Origin: Candidatus Dadabacteria bacterium
GTDB lineage: Bacteria > Desulfobacterota_D > UBA1144 > Nemesobacterales > Nemesobacteraceae
Reading direction: 5' to 3'
Assembly: GCA_022822065.1 (NCBI GenBank)
Contig: JAJECI010000005.1
Span: 1 to 64,000, forward strand
DNA: 64,000 nt
The translations under genes and the position numbers were made by a program. Positions 5,278 through 8,920 of the stretch are shown here, piece by piece. The notes beneath the pieces are model-generated. The model was given only the letters and a program-made list of their open reading frames with translations, was not told the origin of the DNA and did no database searches. Positions within the stretch are counted from its first letter, which is position 1; the number at the start of each line of letters is the position of its first letter.

Positions 5278-6660
<1,383 letters not shown>

Positions 6661-6691
6661 CTAACCCTTTTCTCATGCTCCGGAACTCCCC

Positions 6692-6757
6692 GAATCTCCG
6701 CGTTCATTGACACTGACTGGGCCTTTCGGTAGTCTGGAAGAACCCGATGGAACGAAG
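6692..6757 (+). repeat. Direct repeat copy 1 (duplicated acyP promoter and start codon)
   Basis: This 66-bp stretch matches 8572-8637 at 60 of 66 positions by eye, offset exactly 1880 bp. It contains TTGACA (6707-6712), a 17-bp spacer and TAGTCT (6730-6735), then ATGGAACGAAG equivalent to the first codons of acyP. Four of the six differences lie in the promoter spacer. Here the frame continues as MERRMSG and stops at 6768-6770. Confidence 0.9.
6707..6735 (+). promoter_or_regulatory. Promoter copy driving the sterol module
   Basis: TTGACA, 17-bp spacer, TAGTCT; the -35 is a perfect consensus and the -10 is a weak match. The same elements and spacing are retained in the second repeat copy before acyP, although the spacer has changed. 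That retention suggests both promoters are functional. Confidence 0.6.
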
Positions 6758-6770
6758 GATGTCCGGATGA
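6747..6770 (+). pseudogene. acyP 5' remnant acting as a 7-codon leader ORF (MERRMSG)
   Basis: ATG GAA CGA AG matches the first bases of acyP at 8627, then diverges and stops with TGA at 6768-6770. The stop overlaps the ATG of the desaturase (ATGA), an arrangement that normally couples translation. The remnant also supplies AAGGA at 6755-6759, a Shine-Dalgarno 7 nt from the desaturase ATG. Whether it is translated is unknown. Confidence 0.55.
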
Positions 6771-7402
6771 CCTATATAGCGAGTGCGATTCTGGTGATGA
6801 GCGGATTTATGGCCGGGGCCCAGCTGGCCTACTCTAAGCTCTATGACTGGAGAATAGCCGAGGGAGACGGCAGTCGTCTCAAGGACCGTTACACGAACGC
6901 CGCGATGAACGGAACCATCGCCGTGGCGCTTTACCTTGTCACGATCGTGATGTTCGGGGAACTCCTGATAGACTGGGATGTAGCTTCCACCTGGTACAAG
7001 CCCATCCTCGTCCTGCTGCTCTACGATTTCGGGTACTACTGGCTGCATCGTCTGCTACATGTGCGGAAAGTCATGCAGAAAGTGCACTGGGTTCATCATA
7101 TGAACCTGCATCCCACCGCCGTCGATTCCCTGTACCTGCACCCGGTGGAAATGATCGCGGGGCTGGCTTTCCTGCTAATCTCGATAGTGATAGTGGGCCC
7201 CTTGGGTATCGGAGCGTTTCTGGCGGTCGTTTTGCTCCATACCATCATCAACATACTGCATCATACGAATCTGCAGCTACCCTACCGCCTGGCATGGTTC
7301 GCGAACCACTGGGCCGCAAGTCACGACGCGCATCATAGCCAGGGAGGAAATTACGGAGTGATTACGCCTCTATGGGACTGGATATTCGGAACGCGCTCAT
7401 AG
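6767..7402 (+). CDS. Sterol desaturase / fatty acid hydroxylase superfamily protein
   Basis: A 211-aa integral-membrane di-iron oxygenase of the ERG3/ERG25-type superfamily. The iron-binding histidine boxes are present: H94-x3-H98 (HRLLH), H107-x2-HH (HWVHH), HH at 165-166, and H186-x2-HH (HDAHH), followed by NYG and the terminal LWDWIFGT. Hydrophobic segments lie near residues 1-20, 50-68, 78-92 and 130-162. ATG at 6767 is chosen because it has AAGGA 7 nt upstream; an in-frame TTG at 6707 lies inside the promoter -35. The adjacent NSDHL-like gene suggests C-4 demethylation or another sterol oxidation. At 211 aa it is shorter than eukaryotic C4-methyl oxidases, so C5-desaturase-like or other roles remain possible. 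Confidence 0.85.
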   Translation: MTYIASAILVMSGFMAGAQLAYSKLYDWRIAEGDGSRLKDRYTNAAMNGTIAVALYLVTIVMFGELLIDWDVASTWYKPILVLLLYDFGYYWLHRLLHVRKVMQKVHWVHHMNLHPTAVDSLYLHPVEMIAGLAFLLISIVIVGPLGIGAFLAVVLLHTIINILHHTNLQLPYRLAWFANHWAASHDAHHSQGGNYGVITPLWDWIFGTRS

Positions 7403-8436
7403 AGGAATCAAATTCCTCCCCCGAAGGTCCCGTACTGGTAACCGGCGGATGCGGATTCATCGGGGCGGCGATCGTCCGCGCACTGGCCGAAGAGGGACGT
7501 GATGTGCGGGTGGTCGATCCGGATTGCCATCCGTTTCGCTCCGACGTGCGATTCCTGAACGTGGATATAAGAGACGTATCGGCCCTCACCCGGGCTTGCC
7601 GCGGATGCGAGACGGTTATCCATTGTGCATCCGTCGTGCTTACCCGCAACACGGCACGGGATGAAATGTGGTCCGTGAACTACGGTGGGACGCTAAACGT
7701 GATAGAAGCATGCAGGGAGGTTGGCGTACGCAAACTCGTGCATATCAGTTCGGCCAGCGTGGTTTACGAGGGTAGGGATATTGAGGCCGGAGACGAAACC
7801 CTTCCCTATGCGGGAGTATCTATGAGCGCCTACGTGGACAGCAAGATAGCGGCGGAACGGCGTATCCTGGAGTTCGCTACCGAGGGCGTAACCCGGACAT
7901 GCGCGTTACGTCCTCATCTCGTCTTCGGTCCCGGAGACCAGCGTTTCATCCCGAACATCCTCAAACGGGCGGACGGGGCGGGTATCCGGGAAGTTGGCCG
8001 GAGGGAGAAGTTGTCCGATTTCGTCTATGTTGACAATGTAGTCGATGCTGTGCTGGCCGCGGAACGGGCCCTTGACTCGAACGGGTCGGTATCCGGTCAG
8101 GCATATTTCGTGACGAACGCGGAGCCGGTCCCGTTTTTCGAGTTCATAGAACGCCTGCTTGTGGCGTCAGGGTACGGTCCCATCCGACGACGTATTCCCT
8201 ACTGGGTGGCGTATGCGGGAGCGGGCATTGTGGAGGGCTTCCATGCCGTGGTGCGACGGGACGTGGTCCCGGAGGACGGCCTGTCCCGGTTCGCGGTCCG
8301 CTACCTGAATACGCACCACTACTTCCGTATTGACAAGGCGTCCCGCGACCTGCATTGGCGACCCCGCGTGTCCCTTGCCGAGGCGATAGCACGTACGGCC
8401 GATTCGTTGTGCGATTCGGCGCACGACAGGGAGTGA
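7372..8436 (+). CDS. NSDHL/Erg26-like sterol-4-carboxylate 3-dehydrogenase (3-beta-HSD family SDR)
   Basis: A 354-aa extended short-chain dehydrogenase. The NAD motif TGGCGFIG is at residues 24-31 and the catalytic pair Y154-x3-K158 lies in SAYVDSK. The stretches SSASVVYEGRDI, LPYAG, FVTNAEPVPFFEF and IPYWVAY closely resemble eukaryotic NSDHL as remembered. NSDHL/Erg26 oxidatively decarboxylates 4-carboxysterols after C4-methyl oxidation. The start at 7372 overlaps the desaturase by 31 nt, so the genes are co-translated. About 17 residues precede the usual fold start, and a later start is possible. Substrate is inferred from the family and the partner gene; no oxidosqualene cyclase is in the window. 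Confidence 0.85.
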   Translation: MGLDIRNALIEESNSSPEGPVLVTGGCGFIGAAIVRALAEEGRDVRVVDPDCHPFRSDVRFLNVDIRDVSALTRACRGCETVIHCASVVLTRNTARDEMWSVNYGGTLNVIEACREVGVRKLVHISSASVVYEGRDIEAGDETLPYAGVSMSAYVDSKIAAERRILEFATEGVTRTCALRPHLVFGPGDQRFIPNILKRADGAGIREVGRREKLSDFVYVDNVVDAVLAAERALDSNGSVSGQAYFVTNAEPVPFFEFIERLLVASGYGPIRRRIPYWVAYAGAGIVEGFHAVVRRDVVPEDGLSRFAVRYLNTHHYFRIDKASRDLHWRPRVSLAEAIARTADSLCDSAHDRE

Positions 8437-8571
8437 GAAAGGTGATGAAAGTGGTGCGGCGGTGCGTTTGCGATGTAGCGATTTTCAGGGTTCAGGCACA
8501 CTTCGTTGGGGTCGGGGTAATGGTGCATAAGTACGAGGACGGGAGTATCGTAGTTTAATTTGCTCCTTACG

Positions 8572-8637
8572 GAATCTCCGCGTTCATTGACACCGGCAGA
8601 GCCTTTCGGTAGTCTGGAAGAATCGGATGGAACGAAG
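8572..8637 (+). repeat. Direct repeat copy 2 (native acyP promoter and start)
   Basis: Matches 6692-6757 at 60 of 66 positions by eye. It ends 11 bases into the acyP coding sequence, where the two copies diverge. This copy is continuous with the intact acyP gene and is therefore taken as the original. Confidence 0.9.
8587..8615 (+). promoter_or_regulatory. acyP promoter
   Basis: TTGACA (8587-8592), 17-bp spacer, TAGTCT (8610-8615). A start about 7 nt downstream would fall near 8622, only about 5 nt before the ATG. The acyP transcript would then be nearly leaderless unless the upstream GGAAG (8617-8621) is included. Confidence 0.6.
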
Positions 8638-8920
8638 AGCCGTTATCCTGGTAAAGGGAAGGGTACAGGGGGTTTATTTCAGAGTCTCGGCGACCCAAAC
8701 AGCGACTGAGCTCGGCATCAGGGGACATGTCGAGAACCTCATGGACGGAACCGTCAGGATAGTAGCTGAAGGAACGACCGAGAACCTCGAAAAGCTGATT
8801 GAATGGTGCGGAGAAGGACCGCCCCACGCAAAGGTCGAATCGGTTGAATTCGAGTGGCTTCCACCTGAGGGCGGGTTCATCGATTTTCGTATAAGCAGGA
8901 CTCAAAGGAGATCAGATTGA
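8627..8920 (+). CDS. acyP: Acylphosphatase
   Basis: A 97-aa cytoplasmic enzyme hydrolysing the carboxyl-phosphate bond of acyl phosphates. The signature loop GRVQGVYFR carries the phosphate-binding arginine, and GHVENLMDGTV carries the catalytic asparagine. The fold ends with ESVEFEW and the F-x-I-R strand. Normal length for the family. The stop overlaps the TTG start of the next gene, so these form an operon. Its promoter and first codons are duplicated 1880 bp upstream. Confidence 0.95.
   Translation: MERRAVILVKGRVQGVYFRVSATQTATELGIRGHVENLMDGTVRIVAEGTTENLEKLIEWCGEGPPHAKVESVEFEWLPPEGGFIDFRISRTQRRSD

Follow-up and report, generated by a model that had tools for sequence, protein, structure and literature searches.

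A probable sterol gene pair behind a duplicated acyP promoter and its proposed arrival on an IS1202-family element in Candidatus Dadabacteria

A duplicated acyP promoter bracketing two genes and an IS remnant

The window analysed here, i.e. a stretch of 64,000 nucleotides from the genome of a Candidatus Dadabacteria bacterium (G000 in the comparisons below), contains a 66-bp segment twice on the + strand, at positions 6692..6757 and 8572..8637, with a spacing of 1880 bp and 60 of 66 positions identical. This duplication had been described in a first-pass annotation, and we could validate its extent and spacing as well as the presence of TTGACA-17-TAGTCT in both copies, which are the only matches to TTGACA-N15..19-TARTCT in the window. 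The next-best ungapped match of the 66-mer within the window reaches 35/66. Elsewhere in the 1.63-Mb window genome only a single 15-bp word of it was found, i.e. there is no third copy. The right copy represents the native promoter of acyP (acylphosphatase; 8627..8920, + strand), with the -35 element at 8587-8592 and the -10 element at 8610-8615. The left copy (-35 TTGACA at 6707-6712, -10 TAGTCT at 6730-6735, acyP-derived ATG at 6747) is now located 5' of a two-gene module, and the gene of a thrC-like PLP enzyme (5278..6633, - strand) forms the left flank of the site that is empty in relatives. Judging from their sequences, we infer that both promoter copies are active.

The first gene of the module (6767..7402, + strand) belongs to the FA_hydroxylase/sterol desaturase superfamily (PF04116, E 3.5e-26), starts at 6767 with AAGGA about 7 nt ahead and encodes the histidine boxes HRLLH, HWVHH and HDAHH. 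A PDB sequence search with the hydroxylase gave no match, and its AlphaFold model (mean pLDDT 65) was set aside as evidence. The second gene (7372..8436, + strand), which overlaps the first by 31 bp, encodes an SDR of the 3beta-HSD family (PF01073, E 4.4e-58), whose best solved relative in the PDB search was human NSDHL, sterol-4-alpha-carboxylate 3-dehydrogenase (6jkg, E 1.4e-39). Against the curated SdmB sterol demethylase model the SDR scored 76 bits and thus remained below the cut-off of 600; its best NCBIfam score, for an OleD-type reductase, was likewise below cut-off. The pair of an FA_hydroxylase with histidine boxes and an NSDHL-like SDR corresponds to the ERG25/ERG26 type. Because of the protein families, the NSDHL match and the sterol genes next to the module at other loci, the two genes are predicted to act probably in sterol C-4 processing. 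The earlier assignment of a desaturase-superfamily and an NSDHL-like gene agrees with the Pfam and PDB matches, and the "sterol" label is well supported at the level of protein families and of the gene neighbourhoods elsewhere. With omega values of 0.09-0.33, the module genes look selected. G000 additionally harbors two ERG4/ERG24-type and two sterol-methyltransferase genes, all located away from the module.

At the left junction, the promoter copy ends in an 8-bp stretch of microhomology, GAACGAAG (6750..6757, + strand), which occurs both in acyP (ATGGAACGAAGAGCC) and in the module leader (..CTGAACGAAGGATG). The leader with CTGAACGAAGGATG is seen at other loci, in G001, G005, G011 and G013. 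The acyP-derived ATG opens a mini-ORF of 7 codons, ATGGAACGAAGGATGTCCGGATGA (MERRMSG*; 6747..6770, + strand), whose stop overlaps the hydroxylase start (ATGA) and whose frame is kept in 3/3 promoter-module fusions, i.e. in G000, at acyP in G004 and on contig C32 of G004.

Downstream of the SDR gene, a module tail common to both G004 copies (8437..8489, + strand) ends in ..GGGTTCA and is followed, from about 8490 on, by the remnant of a transposase C-terminus (8490..8558, + strand; ..AHFVGVGVMVHKYEDGSIVV*, compared with ..YHFVRAKVIVHEYGDGRMAVV in the transposase). A right terminal inverted repeat of the IS1202/ISNCY type (TTTAATTTGCTCCTTACG; 8553..8571, + strand) ends at 8571, where the right promoter copy begins, and the distance from this IS end to the -35 element is 15 bp. 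The previous reading had stated that no transposase or inverted repeats were present and that the mechanism was not a familiar one; both statements have to be revised, since a truncated transposase end and a terminal inverted repeat occupy about 8490-8571, and what meets the right promoter copy is the end of an IS1202-family element.

Empty sites and further module copies in related genomes

We compared the locus with MAG-type assemblies, 13 of which contain acyP; the named relatives are Dadabacteria MAG records, and some of their isolate names may point to sponge samples. In 11 of these 13 genomes the thrC-acyP interval carries one promoter copy and no module, which occurs at acyP only in G000 and G004. 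Because these 11 congeners keep a single promoter copy and lack both genes, an insertion accompanied by promoter duplication, with acyP keeping a full promoter, is supported; this part of the promoter-capture reading of the first-pass annotation stands. The composition of the module differs from its surroundings as well (GC 54-62% vs about 50%, GC3 0.68-0.70 vs 0.61). In G001, the thrC-acyP interval contains an unrelated insert of about 390 bp upstream of the single promoter (L035 about 6637-7066), and this insert includes a small ORF, MVPNKEGVILAVCGERGEMEG...

Beyond acyP, the module is located at three further loci, patchily and beside sterol or other genes, and each of these sites is empty in other species. 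In G005, G011 and G013 the pair lies between a GST and an outer-membrane-protein gene, with a sterol methyltransferase, a KshA-type Rieske oxygenase and an MMPL transporter as neighbours, and in G001 it lies between sir2 and nuoA. In G004, contigs C32/C6, whose join was deduced from synteny, harbor a hydroxylase and a decayed SDR behind an acyP-type promoter, between recO and ERG24/P450 genes; the recO-ERG24 site is empty in G000. The CYP51-like P450 adjoining ERG24 in G004 (L088 2134-3390) is reduced to a stub in the window genome (L125 5494-5503), and an IS1634-family transposase gene (L087:4120-5841) is found about 3 kb from this second G004 module copy. Left of the C32 promoter (L087 8935-8960) the sequence reads TAACGGATCTC, resembling the IS end plus target of the window, TTACGGAATCTC. 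This resemblance hints that the C32 copy may derive from a circle that arose between the two repeats. In both G001 and C32 the common SDR is joined to a second type of hydroxylase (91.5% DNA identity between the two), which indicates that module copies recombine. A 63% homologue is present in an Acidobacteria MAG.

For the copies at the acyP and GST sites, module dS amounts to 0.09-0.21 as compared with 0.43-0.69 for core genes, the close G011-G013 pair excepted; for G000 paired with G004, G011, G005 and G013 the values are 0.09-0.21 for the module and 0.43-0.62 for core genes. From the patchy distribution and a module dS far below that of the core we conclude, at the level of sequence, that the module has recently moved and is laterally mobile. 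Vertical inheritance of the module from an ancestor is disfavoured by the same dS values. A more elaborate version, in which the module entered acyP in an ancestor of the genus, was repeatedly and precisely lost via the direct repeats and was afterwards made uniform by gene conversion, appears quite improbable to us: the direct repeats would allow precise loss, and one gain plus two losses cost about the same as two gains on the tree, but between G000 and G004 the module dS is only 0.09-0.13 vs 0.46 for the core, and a scar is kept in no species.

G000 and G004 are not sisters in a 7.4-kb core tree, and their acyP flanks are mostly 85-93% identical, which is ordinary, whereas the module is about 95% identical. 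In G004 the repeat at acyP measures 56 bp instead of 66 bp, and at the right edge the module tail is joined directly to the promoter at GTTCATTG. Because the right IS end is absent there, the module at acyP in G004 may have integrated differently. The left copies in G000, G004 and C32 carry GAACC, while native copies carry GAATC; a variant shared in this way suggests that the promoter was captured once and then spread. The left copy of G004 is a hybrid with a native 5' half and a capture-type 3' half. This hybrid, the promoter-hydroxylase unit on C32 away from acyP and the shared acyP site of two non-sister genomes with normally diverged flanks would also fit a promoter capture that happened first elsewhere (e.g. 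at the recO-ERG24 copy), after which the unit entered acyP by single-crossover homologous recombination. Such a crossover by itself leaves the promoter duplicated, and the IS remnant would be incidental. We regard this order as rather unlikely, since the right copy in G000 starts exactly at the IS end, 15 bp before the -35 element, which is the normal geometry of the IS (see below), and since the initial fusion of promoter and module would still require an insertion at acyP.

The insertion element and its landing sites

G000 and G001 have the same 16-mer at the right end, unique in each of the two genomes, and in the window it lies directly against the duplicated target; this uniqueness per genome led to the search for an IS. 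A fixed right-end sequence as the sole explanation was rejected on the same grounds. An intact copy in G006 encodes an ISNCY transposase (NF033594, 338.8 bits vs a cut-off of 250), of which the window contains a C-terminal fragment only. Across the genus, the sets of left and right ends show imperfect terminal inverted repeats, TGT..ACA, and a second internal site; the inverted repeat of the window has TTACG in place of TTACA.

A complete sister element with passengers is located at the nuoA locus of G001 (L086:2422-4489), where left inverted repeat (TGTAGAGAGTAAGC..), leader, hydroxylase, SDR, transposase C-terminus and right inverted repeat (..TTGCTTCTTACG) follow one another. The right tail of this module-bearing insert corresponds to a multicopy repeat that occurs at many contig ends across the genus. 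A 17-bp duplication (16/17) lies upstream of the nuoA -35 element and is single-copy in six relatives; it falls into the 16-28 bp range of target-site duplications (TSDs) of the long group and is the single case shown directly. Outside the genus, no right end could be recognised in the closest plasmid relative (Mesorhizobium, 51%), and three IMG/VR loci are partial. In Vibrio cyclitrophicus phage records, relatives of the ISNCY transposase (about 32%) are annotated as hypothetical and are located at the ends of small Vibrio elements or close to them.

If the element had simply inserted with a TSD of about 16 bp, the left flank would end at about TTGACA. The left copy runs on to GAACGAAG, which points to a join at microhomology. 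With the left edge set by the insertion of the IS and the right edge by microhomology, 66 bp can be repeated without a 66-bp TSD; as read from the junctions, the repeat differs from a single ordinary target duplication in that its two edges are of different origin. IS1634-like elements produce variable, long target duplications, and an IS1634 transposase is encoded near the recO copy in G004; the 66 bp could alternatively represent a single very long TSD of such an element. We consider this highly improbable, because the end abutting the promoter is of the ISNCY/IS1202 type, with known duplications of 3-28 bp (PMC10132070), and because the junction at the left copy is a microhomology, with no IS left end behind it. 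An IS1634-type element at the module itself was rejected, given the ISNCY-type ends and the distance of about 3 kb to the IS1634 copy on C32 of G004.

An alignment of right ends of the IS revealed a -35-like hexamer at a distance of 15-17 bp. At 9 of 15 near-intact ends, a hexamer matching TTGACA in at least five of six positions (6 exact) is located 15-17 bp beyond the end, as compared with 0/15 in adjacent offset windows (P about 1e-13 vs random positions). Among a further 7 right ends, which were collected after the -35 idea had been framed, 5 have such a hexamer at this offset (3 exact; P 4.7e-8 vs regions upstream of ORFs), and the two misses read TTGTTA and TTGCTA. A -10-like hexamer is common 16-18 bp past the -35 element. 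For another IS subtype (TTGCTATTAACA ends), 0/8 ends face a -35 element, the subtypes having been separated after the ends were seen. Besides acyP and nuoA, the ORFs downstream of right ends appear to comprise trpA, sucD, rpsB, rpsF, rho and thiL (named by eye). At loci L193-L198, L202, L168, L163 and L165, right ends lie 15-17 bp upstream of apparent housekeeping-gene promoters.

Based on this analysis, which covers this genus, it seems fairly probable that long-TSD IS1202-family elements are promoter-homing transposons, which would recognise the -35 box (or RNA polymerase on it) and integrate upstream at a distance of one TSD, their right end turned towards the box, so that the promoter is spared. 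If so, passenger genes land beside active promoters and may gain one by a short microhomology join.

Proposed order of events and comparison with known systems

We consider it likely that a passenger-carrying IS inserted upstream of acyP and that promoter capture by microhomology followed. According to this model, the module would ride as a passenger on an IS1202-family (ISNCY) element that places its right end 15-17 bp in front of -35 boxes of the sigma70 type. On insertion upstream of acyP, this right end would have come to lie 15 bp ahead of TTGACA, so that the acyP promoter stayed whole. An illegitimate join at the 8-bp GAACGAAG, linking an intact start of acyP with the leader of the module, would then have replaced the IS left end and the old leader by the acyP promoter and the first 11 coding bases, creating the 66-bp repeat. 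Later, the IS interior and the greater part of the transposase would have disappeared. Once captured, the promoter would have travelled with the module, as the additional copy at the recO-ERG24 site of G004 shows, and in relatives it may serve as a homology landing pad at acyP. We infer the order of these steps, as well as the enzyme substrate. Several points speak against the model: the window keeps the right IS end only, the left one being assumed lost; G004 lacks the right IS end at acyP; and a target duplication is directly shown in a single case.

The locus illustrates step by step, at the level of sequence, how a metabolic module acquired by transfer may gain a host promoter in nature. 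It also suggests a carrier by which sterol genes could move laterally, in the scattered manner observed, between probable sponge symbionts; this is relevant to the discussion of whether sponge sterols have bacterial sources. In addition, a highly specific insertion site would be assigned to a mobile-element family for which no target is known.

The long-TSD group of the IS1202 family (ISTde1, ISCARN53/62/63, ISVisp7) has TSDs of 16-17 bp, and no target was found for it in the published family analysis (PMC10132070); within the open-access literature, the -35 box is proposed here as this missing target. The elements described here share with that group the ISNCY transposase, the TGT..ACA ends with an internal repeat and a 17-bp TSD (nuoA). 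They differ from it as published in that their right ends lie about one TSD length from a -35 box and in that one copy carries metabolic passengers. The ISAjo2 group of the same family, the "dif hunters", targets the XerC site of dif/pdif with a 5-bp TSD (PMC10132070). Both types of element insert in a constant orientation and at a constant spacing of one TSD from a site bound by a protein, whereas the target here is the -35 box at about 15-17 bp. Promoter homing would thereby resemble ISAjo2 at XerC-bound dif as well as yeast Ty3 at Pol III promoters. Like transporter IS or mobile insertion cassettes (ISKpn21, ISRel10), the element has passenger ORFs between IS ends; in contrast to these, its passengers are a probable sterol gene pair and its transposase is cut to the C-terminus. 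Sponge bacteria are known to harbor scattered, laterally transferred sterol genes, namely SMT, ERG24 and CYP51 (PMC9531527; SMT clusters in PMC10070321), and a word search of both texts did not find Dadabacteria named. The module shares this scattered, laterally moved character with the steroid clusters of sponge symbionts but comprises an ERG25/ERG26-like pair, which replaces or accompanies SdmA/SdmB, and, unlike for those clusters, a vehicle and a promoter source could be identified here.
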